In this document: piece after piece, positions 1 to 10,746 of the stretch
Position numbering within the stretch: position 1 is the first letter of the stretch
Layout: every line of letters starts with the position of its first letter
From: Candidatus Dadabacteria bacterium
GTDB taxonomy: Bacteria > Desulfobacterota_D > UBA1144 > Nemesobacterales > UBA2774
Direction: 5' to 3'
Assembly: GCA_030632765.1 (NCBI GenBank)
Contig: DAOVUC010000029.1
Location: forward strand, 1 to 10,746
DNA length: 10,746 nt
The notes under the pieces: model-generated
Told to the model about the DNA's origin: nothing
Seen by the model: the letters and a program-made list of their open reading frames with translations, nothing else
Databases searched by the model: none
Translations under genes and position numbers: made by a program

Positions 1-3
1 GGG

Positions 4-330
4 TTAGGTTTCGGTATCTTCCGGTAGGGTGAGGTTCTTTTCTCTGATTATTTCATCGGCTTGGAGGGAGTCAAGCGGGATCATATTGTCTTTGCCGCAG
101 CTAGGGCACAAGCGTCCGTCTGAGTAGGAATCGATGATGTTTATTATCCCGGCGATTGCGATGATTGCCGCGACCACAGCACCGTATATAAAGGATCCCA
201 TAAAATCTCCGCCAAACTTCAGGATTAATACTGCGAGCGCTACTTCTAGTATTCCTACATAGAGGTTGCCTGAGAGGAGGCCGTGTTTGCCTTTTCCGAT
301 GAAGTTGCATTTGGTGCAGAGTTTTTGCAT
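4..330 (-). CDS. Small zinc-ribbon membrane protein, hypothetical
   Basis: About 108 residues from the chosen ATG at 330. Seen: an N-terminal CTKC pair at residues 5-8 and a C-terminal CPSC pair just after the membrane part, which together could bind one zinc. Between them lie two hydrophobic stretches (about residues 25-42 and 48-68) separated by a short polar turn, so the Cys pairs would be brought together on one face of the membrane. An upstream in-frame ATG at 399 exists, but the 330 start puts the CTKC motif at the N-terminus, and a perfect TATAAT lies six bases before it. There is no Shine-Dalgarno. The stop is TAA at the window edge. I do not recognise a named family; function unknown. 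Confidence 0.72.
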   Translation of the reverse strand: MQKLCTKCNFIGKGKHGLLSGNLYVGILEVALAVLILKFGGDFMGSFIYGAVVAAIIAIAGIINIIDSYSDGRLCPSCGKDNMIPLDSLQADEIIREKNLTLPEDTET

Positions 331-336
331 GGGGGT

Positions 337-345
337 ATTATACCA
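337..345 (-). promoter_or_regulatory. Extended -10 promoter, probably giving a leaderless mRNA
   Basis: Read on the minus strand the sequence is TGGTATAATACCCCCATG. It has a consensus TATAAT with the TGn extension and only six bases between the hexamer and the ATG at 330. Transcription would start at or within a base or two of the start codon, which fits the missing Shine-Dalgarno. No good -35 hexamer is seen, as expected for extended -10 promoters. That the mRNA is leaderless is inferred from spacing. Confidence 0.5.
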
Positions 346-545
346 TGACCGGATTTTGAGGGTGAGTTGGTTTATGAATAAGGTTTGAAAGAAAGGCAAA
401 TGATGTATATCTACTTTTCATCACGGAAAGGTAGAAGTAGATCATCTATCAATTCTACATTTTGTGGACAAATCCCTACCTACAGTCAATCTTCACGGCA
501 TTAGTTATAAAGACAAGAGACCAGTCAAAGCAATAAAAATAAAAA

Positions 546-581
546 TTAGGGCCGCGGCGCATATATAAGCAGGATGGACAT
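546..581 (-). CDS. Possible 11-residue leader peptide inside the hairpin
   Basis: The minus-strand ATG at 581 is preceded by two GGAGG boxes, the outer one nine bases away, and is followed by ten sense codons and TAA. Most of the frame lies in the loop and the 3' arm of the GC-rich stem, so a ribosome translating it would block hairpin formation. That arrangement is typical of leader-peptide attenuators, but no regulated gene immediately downstream is obvious: the next minus-strand start is about 215 bases away and has its own promoter. Speculative. Confidence 0.25.
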   Translation of the reverse strand: MSILLIYAPRP

Positions 582-614
582 CCTCCTTTACCTCCTTTAC
601 ACGCGCCGCGGCCC
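549..614. repeat. Perfect 12-bp GC-rich inverted repeat with tandem SD/anti-SD loop
   Basis: GGGCCGCGGCGC at 549-560 pairs perfectly with GCGCCGCGGCCC at 603-614 around a 42-base loop. The loop contains CCTCCTTTA twice in tandem (582-590, 591-599), which on the plus strand resembles the anti-Shine-Dalgarno tail of 16S rRNA and on the minus strand reads AAAGGAGGTAAAGGAGGATG. On the minus strand the stem is followed by TAATTTTTATTTTTATT, a terminator-like U tract, and an 11-codon frame (581 to 546, peptide MSILLIYAPRP) runs through the 3' arm and stops with TAA at the stem base. It could be a terminator/attenuator, a small RNA, or a mobile palindrome. Confidence 0.6.
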
Positions 615-635
615 CTTTATTTCATGGTATAAAAA

Positions 636-1030
636 ATGAATTTAGCATGCCTTAAAAAATTTACAAGTGATTTTGTAAAACGTCTTATGCCGAGGCAAAT
701 AAGATGTATATCAAGCAGTATTGGCCCGTGGTCTATATGGCATTTGATGAGTATGGGCTCGACTATGAAGAAATGCTGCTGATGGCTCTGGGCACGATCG
801 CGGCTGAGACCGGGAATTTCAATATCATAATCCGTGAGTATGTATCGCAATATAACACGTCTCCCAACGGCAGGATAATGGACTATAGTTTCGACCTTTA
901 TGATCATCGGGACGACCTGGGCAATATAGGCAATCTCGACGGCGAGTGCAACCGTGGGGAAGGGGCGATTCAGCTTACCGGAAGATATAACTTCCGAGAA
1001 GTAGGCCGGGAAATTAAAGATCCCGCTTGA
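636..1030 (+). pseudogene. GH19/lysozyme-like endolysin, frameshifted and C-terminally truncated
   Basis: Cell-wall or chitin hydrolase of the lysozyme-like GH19 fold, the type common in phage endolysins. Seen: AAETGNF, matching the family's catalytic HETG-like helix, then YNTSPNGR, DLGNIGN and GEGAIQLTGRYNF, matching the family's FxGRGxIQLTGRxNY signature. The conserved N-terminal helix (DFVKRLMP) is in the frame starting with ATG 636, while the rest (EANKMYIKQYWP) is one frame away. One missing base near 690-692, in CTTATGCC/GAGGCA, explains this. The frame ends at DPA-TGA, about half the usual domain length (around 180 residues), so the C-terminal helices are missing. A shortened protein could start at ATG 704, but it would lack the first helix. 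Almost certainly not a functional full enzyme as sequenced. Confidence 0.72.
639..666 (-). promoter_or_regulatory. Candidate sigma-70 promoter for a minus-strand RNA through the hairpin
   Basis: On the minus strand TTGTAA (666-661), a 16-base spacer and TAAATT (644-639), with TGC directly before the -10 hexamer (extended -10). The predicted transcription start is near 632, so the RNA would enter the GC-rich hairpin after about 18 bases and end in its U tract, giving a product of roughly 100 nucleotides. The motif match is moderate and it overlaps the start of the lysozyme relic. Confidence 0.3.
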
Positions 1031-1062
1031 GTCGATAAATGTAAATTAACAAAGGAAGTTTC

Positions 1063-1440
1063 ATGGACGGTAGATTAGTAGAGCTCGGGGTAGGGCTGAT
1101 AGCGGCGATTATGGTAATCAGGGAAGTCCTTGGTTTTCTGGACAAGAAGAAATTTCACAACGTAGATTCACTTGAGCACGGAGCGGTAATGAGTGAACAT
1201 GTAAATGACGTAAGGTTTGCAATATTGAAAGTTAAGGACAAGGTGGATGACCTTCACGACTGGCACAATAAGACCGACGAGGATGGGGTGTTCAACTGGT
1301 ATGTCAGGCGCTCTCTTGAAGATGTAATTAAAGACCTGGGCGTTAAGATAGAGATGCAGATTGGAGTACAGACCAAAATCCTCCAGCATATGCAGAGGAT
1401 GGAAGAGCATTACAGAGAGAAGGCCGAAAAGGGCAGGTAG
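1063..1440 (+). CDS. Membrane-anchored coiled-coil protein, phage holin/spanin-like
   Basis: 125 residues with a good AAAGGAAG ribosome binding site before ATG 1063. Seen: one N-terminal hydrophobic helix (about residues 5-25, rich in L, I, V and A) followed by a basic DKKK stop-transfer patch, then a long charged, predominantly helical region with heptad-like spacing of hydrophobics toward the C-terminus (about residues 80-120). It starts 32 bases after the lysozyme relic on the same strand. Phage lysis cassettes pair an endolysin with small membrane proteins of this shape, so a holin- or spanin-like role is an inference from position and topology. No family-specific motif is recognised. It ends 20 bases from the convergent acyl-CoA synthetase, with no clear terminator between. 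Confidence 0.7.
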   Translation: MDGRLVELGVGLIAAIMVIREVLGFLDKKKFHNVDSLEHGAVMSEHVNDVRFAILKVKDKVDDLHDWHNKTDEDGVFNWYVRRSLEDVIKDLGVKIEMQIGVQTKILQHMQRMEEHYREKAEKGR

Positions 1441-1460
1441 TAGTTGGCTTTACAATCTCT

Positions 1461-2981
1461 TTAGTCTTTAGGCAGCAGGTCATACAACTTTTTATGATTG
1501 ATTTTGCCGCTTGAGGTAAGGGGCATCTCTTCTATGAAATAAATTTTAGCCGGTACTTTGTACTCAGCAATCTGAGTCGCGGTGAATTCTTTTAAATCTC
1601 CCTCTTTTAGAGTGGATCCATCTTTTTTAACCACAAAAGCTACAGGCACGTGGCCTTCCTCGGCATCTTCTACGCCAATCACAGCTGCTTCCTTAACATC
1701 CGGGTTTTTGTATAGAGCCTGCTCAACTTCAGCGGGCGTAATATTCGAAGTGTTCCGAATGATTATGTCTTTAATCCGGCCCGAGTAATAAATTGTGCCC
1801 CCGCTGTCTCTAAAAGCTAAGTCCCCTGTCTTAAACCATCCGTCTTCAAGCACCTTTTCAGTCTCTTCTTCGTTTTTCCAATATCCGGGAGTCACCATCT
1901 GACCCTTCACCCATATCTCTCCAACTTCACCATCCTCTACATCATTCCCGTCTTTAGAGACCAACCTAATCTCGACCCCCGGTAGGACGGTACCTATAGA
2001 ACCTTTGCCCTCTGTGTCGAGCCCTCTATTAATAGTTAGCCATATGGCCTCTGTCATGCCGTAGCCTAGCTGAATGACTAGCCCACAATGGTCATAAAAA
2101 CTTTGTTGAAACGCGCTCGGGAGTGAGTCGCCGCCTGTGTATATCCCGCGCAAAGACCCGAACGTATCTTTGTTTGTAAGCCCGGAGTCCAGGATTTTTA
2201 CGTATACGTCAATGTGAGTAGTAAGCAGAGTAGGGCGCTCGTTCACAAGAGCGGGTATGCACCTGTCCAGCTTAAATCCTTCATCCAGGATTACGGTTGC
2301 CCCTTTATAAAGTGCTGAGAATGTTTCAAGGAATCCGCTTATATGCACCAGGGGGTCCATGACCAGCACTCTGTCATTTTCGTTTATATCATCAAGCGCG
2401 CGGGATGTGGAATCCAGAATTCCATCGACCGACGCATAGCTATGGACTACACCCTTGGGCTCTCCTGTAGAACCTGATGTGTATAGAATTACAGCGGGGT
2501 CGTCAACGTCAATTTCTCGCTCAATATATTGCCCGGCGGGACCAAGGAGAGTATAAAAGTTGCTATATCCCTCTCTTGGCATAACTCCATTTAAATAGAT
2601 CTTTTTCACAGAGGTTTTTGAAAGATCAATTTCATTTAGGAGATGTAATTTCTCAAGTTCGATGATGAGACACCTTGCCTCTGAATTTATGAGCGTTCTT
2701 TCAAGCTCGGGAGCGGCGTAACGTCTGTTTAGCGGCATTGCCACAGCGCCTGATTTAAAGCAGGCAAGGTATGTGATCAATATTTCAAAACCATTTGGGA
2801 GCATAAACGCAACCGGCTCTCCCTTTAGTTCCATAGCCGTGAACCAGGTCGACATGTGACGGGAAAGCAGTTCGAGATCCCCATAGGTATAAACCTCATC
2901 CTTGAACTTCATTGCAATTGCGTCCAGGTTTCTCTCTAAAGTGAAATCTATAATGTTTTCTATTCTATTTGAGTCGCTCAT
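1461..2981 (-). CDS. Acyl-CoA synthetase (AMP-forming), class I adenylate-forming enzyme
   Basis: 506 residues, full length for a fatty- or aryl-CoA ligase. The family activates a carboxylic acid with ATP to an acyl-adenylate, then transfers it to CoA. Seen in order: phosphate loop YTSGSTGEPKG at residues 167-177, GYGMTE at 306-311, WFKTGD at 382-387 with the ribose-binding Asp, the hinge GRIKD at 401-405 followed by TPAEVE, and the C-terminal PLTSSGKI near 487-494 with the catalytic Lys. The hinge loop reads IIRNTSNITP, where many relatives have a Gly. The acid substrate cannot be read from sequence. ATG 2981 has no Shine-Dalgarno within 20 bases; a weak start signal or a leaderless message is possible. 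No CoA-pathway genes lie beside it. Confidence 0.95.
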   Translation of the reverse strand: MSDSNRIENIIDFTLERNLDAIAMKFKDEVYTYGDLELLSRHMSTWFTAMELKGEPVAFMLPNGFEILITYLACFKSGAVAMPLNRRYAAPELERTLINSEARCLIIELEKLHLLNEIDLSKTSVKKIYLNGVMPREGYSNFYTLLGPAGQYIEREIDVDDPAVILYTSGSTGEPKGVVHSYASVDGILDSTSRALDDINENDRVLVMDPLVHISGFLETFSALYKGATVILDEGFKLDRCIPALVNERPTLLTTHIDVYVKILDSGLTNKDTFGSLRGIYTGGDSLPSAFQQSFYDHCGLVIQLGYGMTEAIWLTINRGLDTEGKGSIGTVLPGVEIRLVSKDGNDVEDGEVGEIWVKGQMVTPGYWKNEEETEKVLEDGWFKTGDLAFRDSGGTIYYSGRIKDIIIRNTSNITPAEVEQALYKNPDVKEAAVIGVEDAEEGHVPVAFVVKKDGSTLKEGDLKEFTATQIAEYKVPAKIYFIEEMPLTSSGKINHKKLYDLLPKD

Positions 2982-3033
2982 TTGGTGTGTAATGTTAACA
3001 GGAACGGGCGGATTTTGGTAGAAATTCTGAATA

Positions 3034-3446
3034 TTAATTTAGAGGGAGTATGGGAGTGCATGAAAAATCAAACGGGCCCCCGCCGTTTAACAGAGCTACG
3101 CCGATAAATTCATTGCTTGCGAGAATCTCCTCACCAACAACCTCGCCTGTCTCTGATCTGAGGTCGCATTCGAGGTTGAAACAAAAGTCTACTCGGCTGC
3201 AGTCGCTTGGGTTTATCTCTAAAAGCGCATCAAGAGGCGCTGGGATTCCACCAATTTGAGTAGTCAGCACGCAGTCAAAAGAGTTGCATATCTGCTTAAT
3301 CCCGTCATTCGGGCATTCCTGAAAAGCTAGGAGGAAGTTGTTGTCATCTACAAGCTCTATGCAAGAGTTGCCCCCCCACTGTCACAAGCCGCAAAGCAAA
3401 AAATCAAGAGCATCGGGATGAATAGAAGAGGGTTCTTGCTTTGCAT
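3034..3446 (-). pseudogene. Cys-rich lipoprotein, frame interrupted at a G7 tract
   Basis: ATG 3446 opens a classic lipoprotein signal: a short basic N-terminus, a hydrophobic core with LLIFCF, and the lipobox FAAC with the lipidated Cys at residue 21. After CDSGG the frame runs into seven Gs (3371-3377, minus strand) and stops eight codons on from the Cys. Shifting by one base in the tract (as if eight Gs were present) opens a frame to TAA at 3034 with no stop, giving about 137 residues. The mature part would carry eight further cysteines (NSC, EC, IC, DC, DC, FC, EC, SC), probably disulfides in the periplasm or on the surface. Family not recognised. The join is my reconstruction; an assembly indel, phase variation or true decay are all possible. 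No Shine-Dalgarno before ATG 3446. Confidence 0.68.
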
Positions 3447-3536
3447 AGTACTACTGTCTATGATTCTTCATGATATATCTATAATTATTTCCAAAGATAT
3501 TAGTACGGCTAAAGGTAAACTGGGATACTACTTGTT

Positions 3537-3920
3537 TTAATCATCTTCCTCGATCCATGTAATCGCCTGGTCGAATTCTGCGTTGTGGAATACTTTTACA
3601 AGACCCGAGACCGACATAGTTTCAATCGCGAATCCGAATATCCTTCCCGCCTTTTTGATCCAGTTCACATCTGTGACAATAGCGATCTTCTCCCACGCTG
3701 TAATATGGGCGAGTCCCACCTTTGCGTCGTCCCACATCGCCCCCGCTTCAAACCCCTCAAACTCGTCGCCCAGATGATAAAGCAGGCGTACTTTATCGTT
3801 ATTTTTGAGTTTCTCTTCCACAGCCGGGATAAGGACTGTTTCGTAGTCCTTAGATGTTACCTTTCCCTTGGCTGTAAATCCCAAAGCATTATCCGGTAGT
3901 CCTTCTATTGTCTCTAACAT
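3537..3920 (-). CDS. SpoIIAA/STAS-like domain protein
   Basis: 127 residues, the normal size of the SpoIIAA-like (STAS/SEC14-type) single-domain family. Seen: the N-terminal strand and turn with GFTAKGKVTSKDYETVLIP, a central RLLYHL strand followed by the acidic DEFEGFEAGAMWDD segment, WEKIAIVTD, and a C-terminal VKVFHNAEFDQAITWI helix, all in the family's order. Members are small soluble proteins of unclear role; some are thought to bind lipid or act in regulation. A strong GGGAGGAG ribosome binding site lies four bases before ATG 3920. It follows the NTF2-like fragment on the same strand with a 25-base gap, so the two may be co-transcribed. Confidence 0.85.
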   Translation of the reverse strand: MLETIEGLPDNALGFTAKGKVTSKDYETVLIPAVEEKLKNNDKVRLLYHLGDEFEGFEAGAMWDDAKVGLAHITAWEKIAIVTDVNWIKKAGRIFGFAIETMSVSGLVKVFHNAEFDQAITWIEEDD

Positions 3921-3945
3921 TGCTCCTCCCTCAGATGGTTGCTAA

Positions 3946-4164
3946 CTATATAATACAATAAAATTGGCAAGAGTTGGGATTTTTTTTTATTTCCGGAGAG
4001 TTTTTCTTCTCCAAAATCTTCTTGCTAAAATCATCCAAATTTCCGGAGCTGCCGTTCCCATCGAATGTGAAGTTAGGATCAAAATATTCTTCGAGAACCT
4101 GCAAGTCATTATCATTTTCACAAAGCATATTTGTGACATGTTTAACAAGGTCAATATTGTTCAT
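3946..4164 (-). CDS. Short NTF2/SnoaL-like protein, probably truncated
   Basis: 72 residues from ATG 4164, chosen because GGGAGGGAG sits five bases upstream; an ATG at 4197 lacks such a site. Seen: an amphipathic helix (DLVKHVTNML), then LEEYFDPNFTFDGNG, which resembles the start of the NTF2/SnoaL fold where a helix leads into the first strand of the cone. The family is usually 110-140 residues, so the sheet is missing. The tail passes through a nine-base A run (minus strand, 3980-3988) and reads NPNSCQFYCII, which looks out of frame. The run may be a frameshift site, but neither alternative frame gives a recognisable continuation. Family assignment is tentative. Confidence 0.45.
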   Translation of the reverse strand: MNNIDLVKHVTNMLCENDNDLQVLEEYFDPNFTFDGNGSSGNLDDFSKKILEKKNSPEIKKNPNSCQFYCII

Positions 4165-4493
4165 AACTCCCTCCCAGGAAAGAATCTTTAGCTTCATATT
4201 ACAATAAAGTTGAGGATGATAATAGTTTTTCCGCTACACTATGGTCAATGCCGATTTAAGTTGGAATGCGGATAGCATCCGCAGGCATACGGTTTCTAAG
4301 GTGCGTCAATGGATAAGAGGGACTTCGTAGCTTATATATTGCAGGGGAGATGTGCAGAACTCCTATGGGAGCACGCCCTGCGTGCAAAAAAGGGTGTATA
4401 TGCTCCCGTATTTCTATATACTATCTTTAACTTCATATAGAATAGCTACACTCGATCAAATTTCGAAGATCACAAATAGAGGGGGTTATCACT
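4165..4493. other. Gene-poor stretch with repeat copy 1 and competing hairpins
   Basis: No full gene seen. It holds repeat copy 1 (4255-4282) inside a 29-codon open frame (4241-4330, ATG to TAG). It also holds two mutually exclusive hairpins that share GCA 4371-4373: GCACGC/GCGTGC at 4371-4376 and 4380-4385, followed by six As, and GGGAGCA/TGCTCCC at 4367-4373 and 4401-4407. The glutathione S-transferase promoter must lie in the AT-rich 4408-4478, but no clear pair of hexamers stands out. Confidence 0.45.
4255..4282 (+). repeat. Dispersed 28-base repeat with GCGGATAGCATCCGC palindrome, copy 1
   Basis: TTTAAGTTGGAAT followed by the 15-base palindrome (4268-4282: GCGGAT, AGC, ATCCGC). The 28 bases are identical to those at 5369-5396, and similarity continues for about 20 bases downstream. 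In this copy the reading frame is MVNADLSWNADSIRRHT. Confidence 0.85.
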
Positions 4494-4496
4494 ATT
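4479..4496 (+). promoter_or_regulatory. Ribosome binding site that decides a non-ATG (ATT) start
   Basis: GAGGGGG at 4479-4485 is eight bases before ATT 4494. There is no ATG, GTG or TTG between the upstream in-frame stop at 4443 and the TTG at 4557, and that TTG would remove the enzyme's active-site segment. ATT (infC-type rare start), or an ATG lost by one substitution, is the best reading. Confidence 0.55.
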
Positions 4497-5261
4497 TCAA
4501 AAACTGTTCTCAATATCTTTGCTAATTCGCACTTTTGCGAGAAGGCGCGCTGGGCGTTGGACTATCACGGCATTGAATATGAGATTTGCTATCTCCCGCC
4601 TGGTCTCCATAGCTTCACAGCTAAGAAACTCGGAGCCCCGGGCACGTCTCTCCCCATTTTGGTAGCTGACGGGCAAGTTGTGCAGGGCTCGAGCAATATT
4701 ATTGACTGGGCGGAAGCCCAAAGCACTGCGGTATCGATACGTCTGACTCCAAATACAAATATTGATGCTTGCCGAGAACTGGAAAAACGCCTCGATGATG
4801 TCGCGGGCGTGCATGTGCGTCGCTACTACTATTCTGAAGCCCTCATCGATCATCCGGAGATTGTCCGGCAGGTCTTTGCCAACGACTTATCGTTCTTTAA
4901 AAAATTGGTTTTATATGGGACATGGGGTGTGGTTCGTAAGCTAATGATTGACCTCATGGATCTGGGACCGGAGCAGGGTAGGGAATCCAGGAAAATCATT
5001 GAGAAGGAACTTGCCTGGATCGACAGCCTGATATCTGACGGCAGGCGTTTTCTGGTTGGAGATAAATTTTCGCGAGCAGACGTGACCGCAGCAAGCCTGC
5101 TAGCTCCTCTGGCAATACCTAACGAGCATCCTACCTATGCCAAGCTAAAGTTGCCTCCACACATGACTGCGGATTTGGCAATCTGGGAAGACCGTCCGTC
5201 AATCAAGTGGGTGAATGAGATCTATAGTCAATATCGCCAATGCATGCCTGACGTAGACTAA
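4494..5261 (+). CDS. Glutathione S-transferase family protein
   Basis: 255 residues if it starts at ATT 4494. Two-domain GST: an N-terminal thioredoxin fold and an all-helical C-terminal domain; the family conjugates or reduces substrates with glutathione in the cytosol. Seen (numbered from 4494): active-site region NSHFCEKARWAL at 11-22, cis-proline loop TSLPIL at 51-56, the glutathione gamma-glutamyl binding GSSNIIDW at 65-72, and the C-terminal fold box GDKFSRADVTAAS with the capping Ser and Asp. The SHFC motif lies upstream of the first standard start codon (TTG 4557), so a start there would give an N-terminally clipped, probably inactive protein. It stands alone, flanked on both sides by copies of the same 28-base repeat in direct orientation, which hints at a mobile or duplicated segment. 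Confidence 0.87.
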   Translation: MSKTVLNIFANSHFCEKARWALDYHGIEYEICYLPPGLHSFTAKKLGAPGTSLPILVADGQVVQGSSNIIDWAEAQSTAVSIRLTPNTNIDACRELEKRLDDVAGVHVRRYYYSEALIDHPEIVRQVFANDLSFFKKLVLYGTWGVVRKLMIDLMDLGPEQGRESRKIIEKELAWIDSLISDGRRFLVGDKFSRADVTAASLLAPLAIPNEHPTYAKLKLPPHMTADLAIWEDRPSIKWVNEIYSQYRQCMPDVD

Positions 5262-5596
5262 GTTAACTTTCAGGAATTATAGATTGAATTTTAGGGCTAC
5301 TGGAAACAAAAAATAGAGCCTGAGCCCACCTTTGAGGATTTGTACTGCTCACCTTTTGTCAAACTCGGTTTAAGTTGGAATGCGGATAGCATCCGCCGGC
5401 GTACAATTGCTAAGATACTTCTGCTGGGTTTAAGGTCGATTTTTGAACTCAAAATATTCATTTATTTCCGAGCGAACCTTTCAAATATTAGCGGCTTTAT
5501 GAACATGAGCCGGGGGAGCCTTACGGTTCCTATCGGCTTGGGTTGTACGTGAAACGGTGGGTCAGGTGCTTAGGGTCTTGGTTTTTCAAGTGATTA
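5262..5596. other. Gene-poor stretch with repeat copy 2 and a structured GC-rich patch
   Basis: No gene supported. A plus-strand frame to 5552 contains repeat copy 2 and reads GLSWNADSIRRRTIAKI, parallel to copy 1, but its remainder is low-complexity and lacks a ribosome binding site. At 5491-5538 three mutually complementary segments occur: CGGCT (5492-5496), AGCCG (5508-5512) and CGGCT (5534-5538). GAGCCG at 5507 can also pair with CGGTTC at 5524. Nothing else recognised. Confidence 0.4.
5369..5396 (+). repeat. Dispersed 28-base repeat, copy 2
   Basis: Identical over 28 bases to 4255-4282, in the same orientation, with the palindrome at 5382-5396. Downstream differences from copy 1 in the shared frame are AGG/CGG (both Arg), CAT/CGT (His/Arg), ACG/ACA (both Thr), GTT/ATT (Val/Ile), TCT/GCT (Ser/Ala) and GTG/ATA (Val/Ile), a pattern more like related coding sequence than a plain palindrome. 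Confidence 0.85.
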
Positions 5597-6079
5597 TCAC
5601 AATGATCCCGGAACTTGGTTGTGTCCGGCCGCTATCCAGTCGATGAATAGCGATGACTCTGTGAATCCCCCAATATCCGCTACACCTTCTAGCACAACCA
5701 CTTTAAAAATTACCGAACCGCTTTTCTGCTTTACACTTGTTAGCTCAACCACCACATTTTTAGCTCCATCTTTGTTCAACACGGAAAGAGTAGCGTTTGG
5801 CGGGTCTGCTTTGTAGTTATCGACCCCCTTATTTCATGACTCTACAAATTTCTCAAGCGAGAGATGCCCTGCTACTCGATCCGGACGGTCTGAGAAATAG
5901 ATTACGTTCGGTACTCCGTTTAATGTCAAAGTATCCCCATCCAACGAACCCGACGTCCCGCTTATAACAAATAGATAACCTGGGTTCTTAGAATCGTCGA
6001 TTACATGCTCAGCGAATACCAAGCCGGGAAGGAGCGTTAACATCACGGCAAATATTCCTAATATAGTTGCATATCTCAT
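5597..6079 (-). pseudogene. Secreted hypothetical protein with in-frame TGA at a probable Trp codon
   Basis: ATG 6079 with CAGGAG eight bases upstream. Residues 1-23 form a Sec signal peptide ending VFA|EHV. The body contains GTLxG-like SGSLDGDTLTLNGV, the FSDRPDRVAGH motif, KFVES, then TGA at 5836-5834, and in the same frame NKGVDNYKADPPNATLS and VVVELT...VLEGV...SSLFIDW up to TGA at 5599-5597. From memory, exported proteins with the SDRP-AGH motif usually have FVxxWxxG here, so the TGA replaces a Trp and the two halves are one gene of about 160 codons. Function unknown; periplasmic or extracellular. A one-base nonsense change (TGG to TGA), readthrough, or sequencing error could explain it. 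The terminal TGA is followed at once by TAA. Confidence 0.75.
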
Positions 6080-6140
6080 AGCTATATCTCCTGATTCTTT
6101 AATATATGGCTTAAGATGAAATCTATTACATCCTTATTAT

Positions 6141-6146
6141 ATTATA
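6141..6146 (-). promoter_or_regulatory. Consensus TATAAT -10 box, candidate promoter of the secreted protein gene
   Basis: On the minus strand TATAAT lies about 60 bases upstream of ATG 6079. The best -35 at standard spacing is the weak CAACTT (6169-6164); TTGTAC is present but only 13 bases away. Only the -10 match is good. Confidence 0.3.
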
Positions 6147-6201
6147 GCCCAGTTTCTAAGTACAAGTTGTGTTTCTGTATAGAAAATTACTTAGGAGCAA
6201 C

Positions 6202-6777
6202 TTAGTTTGCCGGAGGATTGCAAATCTCACAGCTCTCGTGGTTGAAGTTGTCGGATATTAGCTTGCCATCCGCATTGTGCTGATAGCAGCAGCAATTCAT
6301 AAACATTTCTTTTATCATCTCACGCCCACGCTGCACACGGGACTTGAGTCCTGAATAAGATAGATTCATTTGCCCCGCTATATCCTTTTGCTTCATACCC
6401 TTTATGTCGCTTAGGATGAGAGGCTCTTTATATTTCTCTGGAAGGCGGCTTATAAAAACGTTTAAACATTTAACGAGTCCCTTGATCTCAGCCTCTTCGT
6501 GATCGTCTTCTACATACTCCCCGTTTTCATCAAGCTCCTGCTCCGGGATTCTATTTTTTCTGTAGTAATCAGTGAGCGAGTTTCTGACTATCCGGTATAT
6601 CCATGGGGCGAGTTTTTTCTCATCCTTAAGGTTGCCAAGGCTGCTGTGGATTTTGATAAAAATCTCCTGCAGCAGATCCTCAGCGTCATCTTCCTGCTTG
6701 ACCTTCCCAAGTAGATAACCCCTAATTTGTCCCGAGAACTCGTTCCATATGTCGGCTGTATTTTCTGTGGCTTTCAT
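6202..6777 (-). CDS. sigZ: ECF RNA polymerase sigma factor, SigZ-type, with Cys-rich tail
   Basis: 191 residues from ATG 6777, chosen over the upstream ATG 6807 because GGAAG sits seven bases before it. Directs RNA polymerase to a specific promoter set. Seen: region 2 with the family hallmark DAEDLLQEIFIKIH (31-44) and WIYRIVRNSLTDYYRK (59-74, the -10 binding part), an acidic linker, and region 4 with LPEKYKEPL...GMKQKDIAGQMNLSYSGLKSRVQRGR (112-152), the -35 helix-turn-helix. The C-terminal extension has CCC at 162-164 and CEIC at 183-186, spaced by a DGKL turn, as I recall for SigZ-type factors. Such Cys could bind zinc or sense redox state (inference). No anti-sigma gene is adjacent, so the tail may be the sensor. 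The upstream same-strand gene, 98 bases away, encodes the ten-Cys peptide. Confidence 0.9.
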   Translation of the reverse strand: MKATENTADIWNEFSGQIRGYLLGKVKQEDDAEDLLQEIFIKIHSSLGNLKDEKKLAPWIYRIVRNSLTDYYRKNRIPEQELDENGEYVEDDHEEAEIKGLVKCLNVFISRLPEKYKEPLILSDIKGMKQKDIAGQMNLSYSGLKSRVQRGREMIKEMFMNCCCYQHNADGKLISDNFNHESCEICNPPAN

Positions 6778-6875
6778 TTCCTGTCTTCCAAAAATATAGG
6801 CGCACACTATATATATTAATCACTAAATATATCTAAATACATAATGTGCACCCATATCCATTGAAATCAAATTTC

Positions 6876-6974
6876 CTATCCGCACTGACAGTCCTTACAT
6901 TCACAGCTGCATCTGCATGTCTCACACTTACAGTTCTCGCACTCGCACGTTACTTTCTCTTTCTGTTCACTCAT
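6876..6974 (-). CDS. Ten-cysteine 32-residue metallothionein-like peptide
   Basis: ATG 6974 to TAG 6876, with GGAGG ten bases upstream (6989-6985). The charged N-terminus MSEQKEKVT is followed by alternating CxC and CxxC motifs: Cys at 10, 12, 15, 17, 20, 22, 24, 26, 29 and 31. There are no aromatic or hydrophobic core residues, so the peptide can hardly fold without metal. That is the design of metallothioneins, which bind Zn, Cd or Cu(I) in thiolate clusters. It does not match the longer SmtA/BmtA pattern with His and Tyr, so it may be a separate minimal type. Directly upstream of the Cys-tailed SigZ gene on the same strand, which suggests one metal or thiol response unit. Too short for ordinary gene finders. 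A random frame with ten Cys in 23 residues plus a GGAGG site is very unlikely. Confidence 0.83.
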   Translation of the reverse strand: MSEQKEKVTCECENCKCETCRCSCECKDCQCG

Positions 6975-7189
6975 GGGGTTAATACCTCCAGTATTTTTTG
7001 TAGCAAATAATTTTTGCTCTCAATTAAATAGACGAAGGTAGTTAAAAAAAGACGCAAATTTATTCTATATAGCTCGTTAAAAATATCGCTAGATATAAAT
7101 CCGTTTGAATGATATTTATAGAGTGATTAATTCTAAAGAGGGGCACGCCATGCATCCGCTTTTTAAACTCTAGAAATAAAGCTATAAGA
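6975..7189. promoter_or_regulatory. AT-rich upstream region of the Cys-peptide/sigZ unit with dyad symmetry
   Basis: About 215 bases without a gene between the ABM protein's stop and the Cys peptide. Seen: TATAAAT at 7094-7100 and ATTTATA at 7114-7120 form a 7-bp dyad with a 13-base centre, and ATATC-GCTA-GATAT at 7083-7096 overlaps it. This is operator-like, but AT-rich dyads arise readily by chance. No clear promoter hexamers chosen. Confidence 0.3.
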
Positions 7190-7485
7190 TTACAGGTCTC
7201 TTATTCTTGTATACAGAGAAGGATAATGAGGATAAGTGTCCATACTCCCTGAAGTAATTTTTTGAAATTCGTCGGTTTGTACAGCGCTGAAGAATGATTC
7301 GGGTGTTTCCCATTCAGCGACATTGATAAAACGGAATTTTGAGTCCTCTAAAATAGATTGGTGTAGCTTCGTGTTGATAAATCCCGGCTGATTCTTTAAA
7401 AACTCAGCTGCTTCTCCCACATTTTTAAACATTCTTCTTCCTTTCCCTTAGGAACTTCAAATGGGTTTATTAAAGTTACCGACAT
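7190..7485 (-). pseudogene. Antibiotic biosynthesis monooxygenase (ABM)-fold protein, frameshifted
   Basis: The true start is ATG 7485 (AGGAG seven bases upstream), giving MSVTLINPFEVPKGKEEE and CLKMWEK, the ABM family's first strand and helix. This frame then stops soon (TAA). The rest of the domain, AAEFLKNQPGFINTKLH, then FINVAEWETPESFFSAV and YPSLYTRI, lies one frame over, to TAA 7190. Restoring one base near 7411-7416 (GAGAA/GCAGCT) joins the parts into about 98 residues, exactly the family size. ABM-fold proteins are small dimeric ferredoxin-like enzymes (quinol or heme monooxygenases) or stress proteins; the catalytic type cannot be told here. The ATG at 7432 would give a fragment lacking the first strand. 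It follows the PAS protein on the same strand. Confidence 0.8.
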
Positions 7486-7554
7486 AGTTCTTCTCCTAAG
7501 TTTTACTTATAAAATTTTGCTTAAATTTACCCCAAAATCTCCCGACAAGTAAAT

Positions 7555-7884
7555 CTATTCTTCTATCACAAAAGAAATCCCAAAGGCGCAGCGTTTGCCT
7601 TCAAAGTCCTCCAGATATTTACACACGCTTAGTTTGTCTTTATTGGGTTTCCGCACGTACTCAAAAGCGAACATAGGCTCTCCAGTCTCTAGCACCTTTA
7701 AATCATCAGCCCTTAAAGCGTCCGCGTCATCAGCCCAGGGCAGATCTTTGTCTTTTTTCCCGACAATCTCCTCAGTTGCCATTGCACGGAGCGCTTCGTT
7801 TACCCAGAGATATGTGCCTTCCTCGTCCTTTACCCAGAAGAAGAACGGCATGTCATTAAAAATCTCAAGATCTTTACTAGTCAT
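7555..7884 (-). CDS. Free-standing PAS domain protein
   Basis: 109 residues from ATG 7884 (AGGAG ten bases upstream; a GTG at 7893 would sit on top of that site). Seen: MPFFFWVKDEEGTYLWVNEAL, matching the PAS PxxIxxKDxxGxYLxxNxA core; GKKDKDLPWADDADALRADDLKVLETGEP, matching the helix region after it; and KLSVCKYLEDFEG with CAFGISFVIEE, the C-terminal strands. It is a single sensor domain with no kinase, cyclase or DNA-binding part, so it would act by binding a partner or ligand in the cytosol. Upstream of the ABM gene on the same strand, and divergent from the PaaK-like gene. Confidence 0.86.
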   Translation of the reverse strand: MTSKDLEIFNDMPFFFWVKDEEGTYLWVNEALRAMATEEIVGKKDKDLPWADDADALRADDLKVLETGEPMFAFEYVRKPNKDKLSVCKYLEDFEGKRCAFGISFVIEE

Positions 7885-8015
7885 AGTTAGCACTCTCCTG
7901 CTTTATTATCGGGCTTTTTTAGTCCAGCCATCTAGTTCCTAATTATACCAGAATTATTGTCTATGTGATAGAATTGTTTTGGTAGATAGAAGTACCCGAT
8001 ATGGCGGAGAGTAAA

Positions 8016-9386
8016 ATGGACTATAAAAAAATACTAGAGAATGTTTGGACAGATGTGCAGAAGCTTATGCCCGAGCACTTAGAGCGTCTGGCATGGACTC
8101 GTGAGCAGCTCCGGGACTACCAAACAAAAGCGCTTAGAGACTTGTTAAGAGACGCAAAAGAGAACACCGTATTTTATAAAAATGTACTTAGCTCGGTTGA
8201 TATAGATAATTTTAATCTTGAGGATTTACCAACACTTCCGCCAAATGATAAAAACATGCACATGGACCGCTGGGACGATTTTGTGGCAGCCCCCGTTACG
8301 TACGACATCGCGGAGAGACACCTTGAAGGGGTCAGGACGGGAGAGACTTCAAACCCGTTTTTTAATAACGAGTATCTCTTTATCGCAACCGGCGGCTCCA
8401 CTGGAAAAAGAGGTCTGTTTCTCTGGGACATGGAGTTTCTTAAACAAATAATCTGCTATACATACCGCTATCTCATCAATGACGAGAAAAAAAATGGCTA
8501 CAATGGCCCGATGAAACTCGCCGCGGTTGAAGCCCCCACGCTTCTTCACGGAAGCCCGTACGTGTTTCCGAGTAAGCCGCTTCCTCAAATTGAGCTATTA
8601 AGTCTTGGCTCGACAGACCCGATTCCCGAGGTGTGCGAGAAGCTAAATGCATTCCAGCCAACTTATTTAAACGCTTACGCCTCATCGGTTGCAGAGCTGG
8701 CATCAGCTCAGCTTAGGGGGGAGCTCGACATACACCCAAGATGGGTCTGCACTAATTCAGGCCCGCAGGACGAGGATATTCGTGAGCGCGTGATGAGGGC
8801 ATGGGGCGTAAAAGCAAGCAATTCGTGGGGCTGTGTAGAGATAGGGCAAATGGGGGTTGAAACAGAGTTCAGCCCGGGGATGATAATTTGTGAGGACGGA
8901 GCAATACTCGAAATCGTAGATCACAACAATCAGCCGGTCGCTAAAGTCGAGGACGCTGCAAAAGTGCTGGCCACAAATTTGACAAACCACTCGCTCCCCA
9001 TGATCCGCTACGAAGTGGATGATATAATAGAGATAGGGGAGGGGATTGCCGAGTATCCGGCCTACAAGAGGGTTCTCAGAATCTTGGGTAAGGCTACAAA
9101 CTGGTTTCTATACGGTGAGGTGAAAGTTCACCCGACGTCATACAGTGATATTTTGGAGCTGGAGAAGGAAGTTGATGAATTTCAGGTTGTTCAAACAAAA
9201 GAAGGCGCACACATAAAGCTTGTTTGTAACGGCGAGCCGAATATTCAAGAGATGAAAGATACAATCTTAAAAAACCTTGATAAATACGGTCTACCTAATC
9301 CAATAGTCACCTTTGAAGTAGTAGATTCTCTCCCTCACCACCCAGAAACCGGGAAAATAAAACGCTTTATCCCACTTAAGATATAA
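8016..9386 (+). CDS. PaaK-like adenylate-forming enzyme (phenylacetate-CoA ligase family)
   Basis: 456 residues from ATG 8016, which has GGAG six bases upstream; ATG 8001 in frame would add five residues (MAESK) but has a poor site. The family adenylates aryl or other acids and usually forms the CoA thioester. Seen (numbered from 8016): phosphate loop ATGGSTGKRG near 124-133, NAYASSVAELA near 219-229, SWGCVEIGQMGVE near 270-282 (adenine/ATP region), LPMIRYEVDD near 327-336 where PaaK-type enzymes have RYxxGD, the hinge RILGKATNWF near 355-364, and the C-terminal ETGKIKRF with the likely catalytic Lys. The Gly of RYxxGD is replaced (YEVDD), keeping the Asp. Substrate not predictable; no phenylacetate pathway genes nearby. 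No obvious terminator after TAA 9386. Confidence 0.9.
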   Translation: MDYKKILENVWTDVQKLMPEHLERLAWTREQLRDYQTKALRDLLRDAKENTVFYKNVLSSVDIDNFNLEDLPTLPPNDKNMHMDRWDDFVAAPVTYDIAERHLEGVRTGETSNPFFNNEYLFIATGGSTGKRGLFLWDMEFLKQIICYTYRYLINDEKKNGYNGPMKLAAVEAPTLLHGSPYVFPSKPLPQIELLSLGSTDPIPEVCEKLNAFQPTYLNAYASSVAELASAQLRGELDIHPRWVCTNSGPQDEDIRERVMRAWGVKASNSWGCVEIGQMGVETEFSPGMIICEDGAILEIVDHNNQPVAKVEDAAKVLATNLTNHSLPMIRYEVDDIIEIGEGIAEYPAYKRVLRILGKATNWFLYGEVKVHPTSYSDILELEKEVDEFQVVQTKEGAHIKLVCNGEPNIQEMKDTILKNLDKYGLPNPIVTFEVVDSLPHHPETGKIKRFIPLKI

Positions 9387-9416
9387 CTTTAAGTATTATA
9401 CACATACTATTGTCGA

Positions 9417-9560
9417 TTATGCACAATTAATACAACCAGCTATAGAAATCTTCCAGCCCATAGTAGCGTAGCGGGTCCAGACGCTCCAGGGGTTGGCGTG
9501 ACGCGCCCACACATCGTCTAACACCTTAAAGAGTTTAGAGATCGCCTTCTCAAGGGTCAT
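9417..9560 (-). pseudogene. N-terminal remnant of a DUF6653-family protein
   Basis: A 47-codon frame, ATG 9560 to TAA 9419-9417. Residues 1-33 contain DDVWARHANPWSVWTRYAT, which I recognise as the conserved N-terminus of DUF6653 proteins (WxRHANPWSVWTR), normally much longer with several membrane helices after this motif. Here the sequence becomes unrelated after residue 33 and stops. No good ribosome binding site. The conserved part begins close to the palindrome at 9583, so insertion of that element or deletion may have cut the gene. Family assigned from memory of the motif, so moderate certainty. Confidence 0.58.
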
Positions 9561-9582
9561 TCAAGGTGTCTCTATTTAAAGA

Positions 9583-9674
9583 AAAGATCTCTCCCGATGG
9601 TCGAGATGACGGTGGTGTTTTCGATATAGTATCATAAAAACACCCGTCATTTCGAGCGTAAGCGAGAAATCTTT
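9583..9674. repeat. Long imperfect palindrome upstream of the GIY-YIG gene
   Basis: Left arm 9583-9620 (starts AAAGATCTCTC, contains GGTCGAGATGACGG) and right arm 9636-9674 (contains CCGTCATTTCGAGCG, ends GAGAAATCTTT) are inverted and about three-quarters identical, with a central AT-rich loop. The core GTCATYTCGA...GAGARATCT recurs at 10018-10061 (inverted) and 10128-10157. I recall palindromes of this look beside small GIY-YIG genes in other bacteria. Confidence 0.72.
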
Positions 9675-9675
9675 C

Positions 9676-9704
9676 TTTACAGTTTTTATTTTTATAAATA
9701 GATA
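9676..9704 (+). promoter_or_regulatory. Candidate promoter of the GIY-YIG gene
   Basis: TTTACA at 9676-9681, a 17-base AT-rich spacer, and TAGATA at 9699-9704, 16 bases before ATG 9721. The spacing is right, but the region is so AT-rich that chance matches are likely. Confidence 0.33.
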
Positions 9705-9720
9705 TTGTATATTTCAGAAA

Positions 9721-10020
9721 ATGTCTAAGCGGAGTTACTACCTCTATATAACTACCAATCCAAGCAAGACGACACTATATATAGGTGTCACGAACAACCT
9801 GCCCAGAAGACTCCAGGAACATTTGGAAAATAAAAATAATGAAGATACTTTTTCAGGTAAATACCATTGTTATAACTTGGTTTACTGTGAAGTTTATGAA
9901 ACTATGGCAGATGCAATTAGAAGGGAAAAAGAAATAAAGAAGTGGAGAAGAAATAAGAAAACAGAGCTGATCGAACAGCAAAATCCTAATTGGGAATTTA
10001 TGAACGATAAAATGCTTTAG
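9721..10020 (+). CDS. GIY-YIG endonuclease domain protein (URI/YhbQ-like)
   Basis: 99 residues, the full size of the single-domain GIY-YIG family, which cuts DNA with one metal ion. Seen: YLYI at 7-10 (GIY equivalent), LYIGVTNNLPRRLQEH at 19-34 (YIG plus the catalytic Arg and the His of the first helix), YCEVYE at 55-60, the metal-binding Glu within REKEIKKW at 68-75, and the conserved QNPNW at 87-91. All expected catalytic positions are present, so it looks active. The ribosome binding site is weak (CAGAAA). The stop codon TAG overlaps the start of the right-hand palindrome, and the left-hand palindrome ends 46 bases before the ATG. This tight packaging suggests the enzyme acts on, or moves, these palindromes (inference). 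Confidence 0.93.
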   Translation: MSKRSYYLYITTNPSKTTLYIGVTNNLPRRLQEHLENKNNEDTFSGKYHCYNLVYCEVYETMADAIRREKEIKKWRRNKKTELIEQQNPNWEFMNDKML

Positions 10021-10157
10021 ATCTCTCACATGCACACAATGTGTGCTGGTCGAGATGACATCACGCGCTGGACAAACTATTTCTAAGGAGTTTCGGAGTC
10101 AAAGCTCGCCAGCGGATGCTATCCGCCCGTCATTTCTAGCGTAGAGAGAAATCTGTC
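10018..10157. repeat. Palindromic element downstream of the GIY-YIG gene
   Basis: Left arm 10018-10061 (TAGATCTCTCA...GGTCGAGATGACA) and right arm 10128-10157 (CGTCATTTCTAGCG...GAGAAATCTGTC) are inverted. Inside the left arm is a perfect 7-bp hairpin, GCACACA (10032-10038) and TGTGTGC (10040-10046). The arms match those of 9583-9674. Confidence 0.65.
10112..10126 (-). repeat. GCGGATAGCATCCGC palindrome, copy 3
   Basis: The 15-base palindrome core appears in the opposite orientation to copies 1 and 2 and without their TTTAAGTTGGAAT flank. Read on the minus strand it continues YGGCG as in copy 2. It lies within the right palindrome of the GIY-YIG unit. Confidence 0.75.
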
Positions 10158-10180
10158 TTTTATTATTAAGAGAAATTTAA

Positions 10181-10209
10181 TTGCTAGTCAAATCAGGGAT
10201 CGTTAGCTA
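10181..10209 (+). promoter_or_regulatory. Candidate promoter of the small exported peptide gene
   Basis: TTGCTA at 10181-10186, a 17-base spacer, and TAGCTA at 10204-10209, 36 bases before ATG 10246. Reasonable hexamers at ideal spacing; not exclusive. Confidence 0.33.
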
Positions 10210-10245
10210 CACTTTTTATATATCCAAAAGCAGGAGGCGTTAATA

Positions 10246-10398
10246 ATGAAGAGATTAGTACTTACATTGGCAATTGCATTAGGACTGGCATTGGGAAGCT
10301 TCGCTATCACATCCTCTGACGTACAAGCTTGCGGCGGAAAAGATAAAGGCGCTACAACTGAAGACACCACTGGTACTTCAGACGGCACCCAGTCCTAA
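10246..10398 (+). CDS. Small exported or lipid-anchored peptide, hypothetical
   Basis: 50 residues with a perfect AGGAGG eight bases before ATG 10246. Residues 1-28 form a signal peptide: basic MKRL, hydrophobic core LTLAIALGLALGSFAI, and VQA just before Cys 29. VQA|C could be a weak lipobox or a normal signal peptidase I site. The mature part (from CGGKDKG) is only about 22 residues, rich in Thr, Gly, Ser and Asp, with no fold visible. A strong terminator follows, so it is probably its own transcription unit and expressed. Family not recognised; possibly a surface peptide, signalling peptide or toxin-like entericidin analogue, with no direct support for any of these. Confidence 0.75.
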   Translation: MKRLVLTLAIALGLALGSFAITSSDVQACGGKDKGATTEDTTGTSDGTQS

Positions 10399-10429
10399 AT
10401 AAGGTTTACTTCATAAGAGAAGCAATAGA

Positions 10430-10473
10430 AGCCCTGGCGCAGTCATTCCAAACTACGTCAGGGCTTTTTTTTT
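10430..10473 (+). terminator. Strong intrinsic terminator
   Basis: AGCCCTGGCG at 10430-10439 pairs with CGTCAGGGCT at 10456-10465 (one G-U pair) around a 16-base loop, followed by nine Ts (10465-10473). It ends the small exported peptide's transcript. The T run overlaps the stop codon of the convergent PPOX gene. Confidence 0.9.
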
Positions 10474-10746
10474 ACCCTTCGATTTTAAAGACTTTCTCTG
10501 GTTTAATTTTAAAAATTACCCTCTGCTCTCCGGGCTGACGGTGAGGGTATTCATCTACGCCCAAGTATTTCTTTGCCAATGAGTTTATATGCTCGTCTGC
10601 GCCTTGGTGGGTATCTTCAACGACCCTGCCTCTGATCATGGCCTGATTATAATGGTTCTCTGAGTCTGCCAATGCAAAGGCGACTGCGCCGGTTCTCCTG
10701 ATATTAAGTTCGGCAGCGGGTACTATACGCAAATAAAAAAGGGGCA
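10472..10746 (-). CDS. Pyridoxamine 5'-phosphate oxidase-like (PPOX/FMN-binding split barrel) protein, C-terminal part
   Basis: Partial: the frame is open to the window edge, so the N-terminus lies outside. Seen: NIRRTGAVAFALADSENHY, then MIRGRVVEDTHQGADEHINSLAKKYLG, then DEYPHRQPGEQRVIFKIKPEKV. This order and the IRGRVVE and AKKYLG motifs fit the PPOX-class proteins that bind FMN or F420 on a split beta-barrel; the C-terminal strand and PEKV end are complete. Some members reduce deazaflavin- or flavin-dependent substrates; the cofactor here cannot be told from this fragment. It converges with the small exported peptide gene and shares the terminator region. Stop codon TAA. Confidence 0.8.
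   Translation of the reverse strand, partial: PLFYLRIVPAAELNIRRTGAVAFALADSENHYNQAMIRGRVVEDTHQGADEHINSLAKKYLGVDEYPHRQPGEQRVIFKIKPEKVFKIEG

Follow-up and report, generated by a model that had tools for sequence, protein, structure and literature searches.

What would a bacterium gain by placing, directly in front of the gene of an alternative sigma factor, a gene for a peptide in which almost every third residue is a cysteine (Cys)? The question is raised by a stretch of 10,746 nucleotides from a Candidatus Dadabacteria bacterium (contig DAOVUC010000029.1 of assembly GCA_030632765.1, positions 1 to 10,746; hereafter the window), which encodes a metallothionein-like peptide of 32 residues and, next to it on the same strand, an extracytoplasmic function (ECF) sigma factor of the SigZ family with cysteines in its tail. 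The answer we favour, and hold to be probable, is that peptide gene and sigZ form a self-amplifying operon against metal or metalloid stress, with the peptide as metallothionein, under a SigZ that would do its own sensing in the manner of CorE.

The peptide translates as MSEQKEKVTCECENCKCETCRCSCECKDCQCG, i.e., ten Cys in 32 residues (31%) with neither His nor aromatic residues, the Cys being spaced CxC-xx-CxC-xx-CxCxCxC-xx-CxC, and it thereby shows the traits of metallothioneins: shortness, richness in Cys, CxC and CxxC motifs, and lack of aromatics. The original prediction, made from the letters of the window, had described a ten-Cys peptide with a GGAGG ribosome-binding site, which the translation bears out, and a strict alternation of CxC and CxxC, which has to be given up, the run CxCxCxC breaking it in the middle. 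In any frame of 300 first-order Markov shuffles of the window there are at most seven Cys per 22 residues, against the ten observed. The peptide, of a sort that usually escapes gene finders, matches no family of NCBIfam (E up to 0.1) or Pfam (E up to 1), the metallothionein families included. When some 5.8 billion proteins were searched, an alignment of the Dadabacteria peptides found a single match and one of Bacteroidota peptides none, short queries searching poorly in both cases. The match, P0003 (ENA, on a contig of 585 nt), is identical to the window peptide in its N-terminal part and then continues for 30 extra residues.

The nearest named relatives of the window's SigZ, at 61-70% identity, come from bins labelled Candidatus Dadabacteria, Deltaproteobacteria or Thermodesulfobacteriota, and it is from these bins that we chose the label of what we call the Dadabacteria family (genomes G000-G015, the window's own genome being a fragmented one of 1.83 Mb in 292 contigs, 83.6% complete). 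Wherever the family's DNA ahead of sigZ is visible, in 11 loci from ten genomes, a Cys-rich peptide is encoded immediately before sigZ on the same strand, and GGAGG is placed as in the window in ten other loci of the family. Contig ends account for three further genomes, as the peptide lies near one in G001 and G014, with sigZ outside the view, and sigZ stands at a contig start in G004, with the peptide side cut off; neither gene was found in G011, G012 and G015, a weak negative since the peptide search also overlooked divergent peptides that other genomes do have. Among 12 family peptide genes, synonymous divergence (pS) exceeds nonsynonymous divergence (pN) in 64 of the 66 pairs and equals it to two decimals in the remaining two, the pairs being non-independent by their shared sequences and many of them saturated. 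Where pN is below 0.25, pS is the higher in 11 pairs out of 11 (e.g., 0.62/0.11, 1.16/0.20 and 0.55/0.03 for pS/pN). The original prediction had left it to relatives to say whether the frame is kept; it is, and, given its place upstream of sigZ in 11/11 loci and the synonymous bias, the peptide is a real and conserved gene. One genome of the family, G010, has two differing peptide-sigZ loci (L007 and L021), each with its own promoter-like site of the kind discussed below.

In a wider comparison, 78 SigZ loci were set against 33 control loci of other ECF sigma factors. The 78 comprise 11 loci of the family, four of the same order, 13 of the phylum of G328 (probably Planctomycetota, by inference), 36 of Bacteroidota (35 from the phylum of the Flavobacterium AS60 genome and one Saprospiraceae record), one of Bacillota, seven others and six plasmid loci (out of 26 plasmid records with a match); left out were the truncated gene of G004, same-genome duplicates (L027-L032 and L035), a second Saprospiraceae record (L034) and 12 weaker or partial matches (L037-L048). 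A small Cys-rich ORF (open reading frame of 20-110 residues, with at least six Cys and at least 12% Cys) adjoins sigZ, in the same orientation, in 38 of the 78 loci and in two of the 33 controls (Fisher p 8e-6), a comparison in which the genomes are non-independent lineages, 11 of the 78 loci are close relatives, the boundary between SigZ and controls was set by us at a TIGR02959 E of about 1e-38, and both this boundary and the definition of Cys-rich were chosen after examples had been seen. On the opposite strand such ORFs are found in 5/78 and 0/33, respectively. The peptides beside SigZ measure 24-78 residues, counted from the ATGs seen. That the peptide should be met next to SigZ elsewhere, on which the original prediction also hung, is thus seen in the 11 family loci where the DNA is present and in 27 of the 67 SigZ loci outside the family, other phyla included. 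The curated TIGR02959 cut-off is passed by 33 of the 70 loci scored, and among these 33 there are 15 with the peptide, 20 with the site, 14 with arsenic (ars) genes and four with neither peptide nor ars genes. Two controls, L112 (G119) and L192 (G205), have four and five Cys in their tails and a small Cys-rich ORF just upstream, so the pairing of sigma factor and Cys-rich peptide may extend beyond SigZ; two others, L116 and L173, have similar Cys tails and no peptide.

A bipartite element, TTTTGCGTCTTTTTT followed by a spacer and CGTCTATA, precedes each of the 14 peptide genes of the initial comparison (11 from the Dadabacteria family, two from the same order and one from Flavobacterium), with single changes in three of them (GCATC in L015 and L017, GGTCT in L035). 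Its pattern matches once in the window and never in 200 shuffles. The element looks like an ECF promoter, and its G-35 C-34 agrees with the C reported at -34 of the promoter of Bacillus subtilis SigZ, a member of the same TIGR02959 family compared here by its published description (PMC6713349, as far as the accessible text goes). In its relaxed form, GC[AG]TC[CT]-N15-17-GTCT (the usual form being TGCRTCYTTT-N11-13-CGTCT), it is found beside sigZ on the same strand in 46/78 SigZ loci and in none of the 33 controls (p 2.7e-10), the opposite strand having it in 1/78 and shuffles predicting 0.42; a stricter form gives 32/78 against 0/33 (p 1.4e-6) and 18 of the 64 loci outside the 14 of the discovery. 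Among the loci with a peptide, 33/38 carry the relaxed site and 23/38 the strict one.

Genome-wide counts give this picture another shade. The exact pattern GCGTCTTTTT-N9-12-CGTCT occurs 11 times, in ten of 34 Bacteroidota genomes with SigZ, and ten of these sites are no more than about 1 kb away from SigZ; another 34 Bacteroidota genomes, in which no SigZ reaches the threshold, have it once, and the reversed pattern, as a control, occurs five and seven times in the two sets. One of the ten (G906, L213) faces away from sigZ and stands 35 nt before an efflux gene, which we take to be of the MATE type. In the Dadabacteria family, peptide genes account for 8 of the 11 sites (reversed control 3), and for 13 of 30 when two mismatches are allowed (control 9). 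It is therefore not the frequency of the site, which is ordinary, but its position that is unusual. An exact site also precedes, in G008, a P-type ATPase fragment of 492 residues at the end of the locus, which scores above the general heavy-metal cut-off (TIGR01525, 371.8 bits against 346.25) and below the copper-specific ones (TIGR01511, 377.6 against 397; CopA model, 538.6 against 1316). Thirteen further family sites (L053, L059, L062, L065, L072, L075, L076, L077, L080, L081, L084, L085 and L087) were rejected as chance because they lie inside or antisense to genes or are implausibly placed, and four (L078, L079, L082 and L088) were neither accepted nor dismissed. The two-mismatch site of L082 (G009:C20, near 123056) is 75 nt ahead of a candidate gene that presumably encodes a flavodoxin-family reductase, and that of L086 (G005:C129, near 3235) precedes a glutathione-S-transferase-like (GST-like) gene with a Cys-rich C-terminus, adjoining a peptide-sigZ pair.

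The sigma factor itself scores 180.8 bits with TIGR02959, over the curated NCBIfam cut-off of 168.65, and narrowly misses the narrower NF007215 (PRK09637, SigZ; 203.1 against 212). The same-strand SigZ with CCC and CEIC in its tail was therefore rightly read from the letters of the window. As to an anti-sigma gene nearby, which the original prediction had missed there, neither the listed ORFs of the window nor the ten window proteins scanned include a recognisable one. In the flanking proteins, Pfam finds a monooxygenase-like and a PAS protein and nothing at 5834-6079. The window's tail has the spacing CCC-x18-CxxC, and there is one Cys in the linker between sigma2 and sigma4. The four tail columns hold Cys in 95, 88, 95 and 90% of the 78 SigZ loci against 0, 21, 9 and 9% of the 33 other ECFs, the linker Cys is present in 71% against 18%, and the full CC...CxxC tail is matched as a pattern in 66/78 against 0/33, which leaves 12 SigZ loci without it. 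SigZ genes that have no peptide bear the tail as well, and the idea that the tail is a peculiarity of the window's SigZ was accordingly rejected, as it is common to the whole family. A SigZ relative on a Priestia plasmid lacks the last Cys pair and has neither site nor peptide.

Matches to ArsM, ArsI, ACR3, ArsC, aquaporin or ArsR lie within 1.5 kb of sigZ in 26/78 loci and of no control sigma factor (0/33). Once the weak ArsM matches of L012 (G007, 4e-12) and L014 (G008, 1.9e-9) and the ArsR-only L152 are set aside, ArsM, ArsI/CadI or ACR3 is found in 23/78 against 0/33, and none of these 23 has the Cys-rich peptide. Six neighbour proteins, from four loci, exceed curated NCBIfam cut-offs, namely three methyltransferases (376, 364 and 341 bits; cut-off 263), two ArsI/CadI proteins (145 and 125; 116) and one ACR3 (366; 283), similarity to these six being all that identifies the others; the ArsC-like protein of L016 is below the curated cut-offs. 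The site is directly before arsM in L016, L036 (where the arsM-like frame ends early), L145, L196 and L221 (of the L144 locus), and directly before arsI-acr3 in L153; the gene behind it in L131 matches no NCBIfam model. On a tree of SigZ, one group (SH-aLRT 92) unites 11 Dadabacteria loci, seven of Bacteroidota and two of the same order, and has the peptide throughout (20/20). Across the tree, a quick one with many weak forks and with the tail columns included, the labels peptide and ars swap at least six times, two changes per label being forced by the starred branches alone. The simplest reading of these sequences would be an effector exchangeable beside one and the same sigma factor.

From the peptide gene, its order and pairing with sigZ, its conservation, the shared site, the conserved tail and the exchange with ars genes, a model can be built in which every biochemical step (transcription by SigZ, metal sensing, metal binding, feedback and the role of the hairpin) is supplied by inference, as follows. 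A metal or metalloid would enter the cell and be bound by the CC...CxxC tail of SigZ (with the linker Cys in most members), serving as an on-board sensor of thiophilic ions by analogy with CorE and CorE2; the metal-bound tail would then activate SigZ, with no recognised anti-sigma partner involved. Active SigZ would direct RNA polymerase to TGCRTCYTTT-N11-13-CGTCT ahead of the peptide-sigZ operon and so raise both products, the hairpin between the genes probably holding the output of SigZ under that of the peptide. The peptide, as a short metallothionein, would bind the toxic ion in the cytosol and lower its free level, by which SigZ would be switched off again. The signal is most likely As(III) or an ion of like chemistry, e.g., Cd(II) or Cu(I), because arsM, arsI/cadI or acr3 replaces the peptide beside sigZ in other lineages; for the SigZ family as a whole As(III) is the best single guess, given the arsM and arsI neighbours, and for the Dadabacteria any of Cu(I), Cd(II) and As(III) is a candidate. 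Of the compact circuit postulated in the original prediction, the joint working of sigma factor and peptide gains from the conserved pairing and from the promoter-like site ahead of the peptide, and the Cys tail is found in peptide-less SigZ too; that SigZ senses and the peptide binds the same metal is something we still infer, the neighbours of peptide-less SigZ pointing to arsenic or related metals. A wider generalisation, that SigZ proteins are self-sensing, autoregulated ECFs for arsenite or similar thiophilic ions across phyla, with one promoter (the usual form above) and an exchangeable partner, be it the peptide or arsM/arsI/acr3, is plausible, and we lean very slightly against it.

Several observations weigh against such a model. 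Neither Cys-rich peptide nor ars match is found in 17/78 SigZ loci, all six plasmid loci among them, although seven of the 17 do carry the site and one of them, L136 on a Hymenobacter plasmid, has annotated arsC and ACR3 genes at a greater distance. The site is missing from five peptide loci (L130, L152, L154, L195 and L197), and its relaxed pattern was tuned partly on loci counted with it. Of the 23 ars loci, just six have it in the scanned stretch, to which L144 may be added with a site just outside, and in one of these, L090, it is not ahead of the ars gene, so that most ars loci are tied to SigZ by neighbourhood alone. A looser exact pattern in 22 SigZ genomes finds five sites (four at SigZ) against nine for the reversed control, and a heavy-metal ATPase gene stands behind the site in one genome only (G008).

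Other explanations start from the same facts. The Cys pairs of tail and peptide are able to form disulfides, and SigZ might thus sense thiol or redox stress (disulfides, electrophiles), the peptide being a thiol buffer or redox partner instead of a metal store; the GST-like gene of G005 beside a peptide-sigZ pair and the efflux gene behind the exact site of G906 would fit this. We nevertheless consider it unlikely, as the genes recognised next to SigZ in the various phyla concern arsenic and heavy metals (arsM, arsI/cadI or acr3 in 23/78), and as the Cys-tailed ECFs for which there are data, i.e., CorE, CorE2 and OrbS, answer to metals (PMC8999054 and PMC9023288, in their accessible text). The tight linkage to sigZ, with 20 peptides out of 20 in one group of the tree, and the lack of any other recognised SigZ partner in the window could also mean that the peptide regulates SigZ directly, by binding the sigma factor or stripping the metal from its tail, as a small anti-sigma factor or metallochaperone would do. 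The strong divergence of the peptides outside their Cys positions and the 23 SigZ loci that have ars genes and no peptide fit an effector better, and make this quite improbable.

It is also conceivable that the peptide stores or buffers essential Zn or Cu, that SigZ is a general stress sigma factor and that the ars neighbours are a coincidence. The bacterial metallothioneins for which there are data (SmtA, MymT) are indeed Zn or Cu proteins, and the P-type ATPase fragment behind the site in G008 points the same way; a coincidence that yields ars matches in 23/78 SigZ loci and in 0/33 control ECFs, however, is very hard to accept, and we give the idea little weight. Nothing in the results speaks for the peptide being a chance Cys-rich frame without function, which is already refuted by the shuffles that never reach ten Cys in 22 residues, by the conservation of the frame with synonymous bias and by that of the site and ribosome-binding site with it. 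The metal or metalloid stress operon is thus the reading retained here.

SmtA/BmtA and MymT bind metals in the cytosol and are small and rich in Cys, with CxC and CxxC motifs, as is predicted for the window peptide, though SmtA is longer and has His; control of a bacterial metallothionein by a repressor is exemplified by SmtB. In Caulobacter, the bufferins are Cys-rich, small, metal-binding products linked to an ECF sigma factor; they are exported and modified, whereas the start of the window peptide does not resemble a signal peptide, and NCBIfam and Pfam matched no modifying enzyme among the ten window proteins scanned. Cys-rich ORFs upstream of SigZ in L125 and L129 do start with a signal-peptide-like stretch, which would place their peptides outside the cytoplasm. 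MymT is controlled by RicR, not by a sigma factor (PMC10141476, accessible text). The closest parallel to the sigma factor is that of CorE and CorE2 of Myxococcus xanthus (ECF238, formerly ECF44), which respond to Cu, or to Cd/Zn, and which, like SigZ, are ECFs without an anti-sigma factor and with a Cys-rich C-terminal tail, that of CorE2 also opening with CC (PMC8999054 and PMC9023288, accessible text). Their tails are spaced CX4CX2CX1C (CorE) and CCX3CX2CX1C (CorE2), unlike the CCC-x18-CxxC of the window, and their linkers have CxC where the window's SigZ has a single Cys (PMC9023288, same scope). Because the tail spacings differ, SigZ is not classed as CorE-like here, though it may, by analogy, work like CorE. 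OrbS of Burkholderia cenocepacia is another ECF that senses metal by its own C-terminal Cys cluster, as proposed for SigZ, but there the metal (Fe) inhibits, and the targets make and use a siderophore (PMC9023288, accessible text). The word metallothionein is absent from the accessible text of PMC8999054.

Metallothioneins, Cys-tailed metal-sensing ECFs and ars operons are, then, known already. What we have not seen in the open-licence literature of PubMed Central (preprints being outside this scope) is a SigZ of no assigned function tied across phyla by one site to very short metallothionein-like peptides, with ars genes elsewhere; no pairing of SigZ with such a peptide and no metal or metalloid role of SigZ was found there, and the matches to SigZ and arsenic were judged unrelated. 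SigZ, which a table of B. subtilis sigma factors lists as 'ECF' only, with no function (PMC10141391, accessible text), would hereby gain a predicted promoter, signal class and targets. The finding points to many very short metallothionein-like peptides that seem to be missing from protein collections and, if the wider generalisation above holds, Cys-rich peptides of this sort would make up a large class of bacterial metallothioneins that has for the most part escaped annotation and of which some serve against arsenic. Sigma-factor control would join the repressor-type control of bacterial metallothioneins, represented by SmtB and by the RicR mentioned above.

Table 1. Features of the peptide-sigZ locus, in minus-strand order (window coordinates).
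Feature	Position	Strand	Remarks
Promoter-like site GCGTCTTTTTTTAACTACCTTCGTCTAT	7028..7055	-	-35-like GCGTCT 7055-7050; -10-like CGTCTAT 7034-7028; precedes the peptide gene
Ribosome-binding site GGAGG	6985..6989	-	10 nt ahead of the peptide ATG; read directly
Metallothionein-like peptide gene	6876..6974	-	32 aa, 10 Cys; reading frame translated
Long hairpin (inverted repeat)	6792..6859	-	Between the peptide stop and sigZ
sigZ, ECF sigma factor, SigZ family	6202..6777	-	Likely 191 aa; TIGR02959; frame open to GTG 6807
SigZ tail CCC	6286..6294	-	Includes the first Cys pair of the conserved CC...CxxC tail
SigZ tail CEIC	6220..6231	-	Second Cys pair

For the start of sigZ (Table 1), the ATG at 6777 is likelier than the GTG, since the open frames of relatives (e.g., L006, L007 and L009) have their first Met there. 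The hairpin folds as RNA with -29.8 kcal/mol (z -6.56), and none of 200 shuffles does equally well. When 7 of the 11 family loci are aligned, three of 19 pairs are changed on both sides, two of these being broken in three and two sequences, and the covariation term is unfavourable (+1.12); the inverted repeat is kept, with weak evidence of covariation. It may set the ratio of peptide to SigZ product, and a role of the region as a DNA operator is conceivable too. A search of Rfam gave six sub-threshold microRNA matches, judged to be chance.

The surroundings of sigZ hold a few more genes worth recording. In three Dadabacteria relatives a protein with CDHC/CEHC motifs, which we take to be a relative of carboxymuconolactone decarboxylase/AhpD, is encoded convergently to sigZ (L027 886-1554, L029 5653-6321 and L030 5588-6247, all on the minus strand), and in two of them a protein of near-identical repeats SKDCRTTSAGNVACGGL is encoded near sigZ (L029 6409-6924 and L030 6348-6893, both minus). 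The window itself has another GST-like gene at 4557-5261 (plus strand), as well as an ORF at 704-1030 (plus strand), presumably a fragment of a GH19-type chitinase or endolysin, to which a similar ORF lies near sigZ in UBA2774 (L031 5533-6087).

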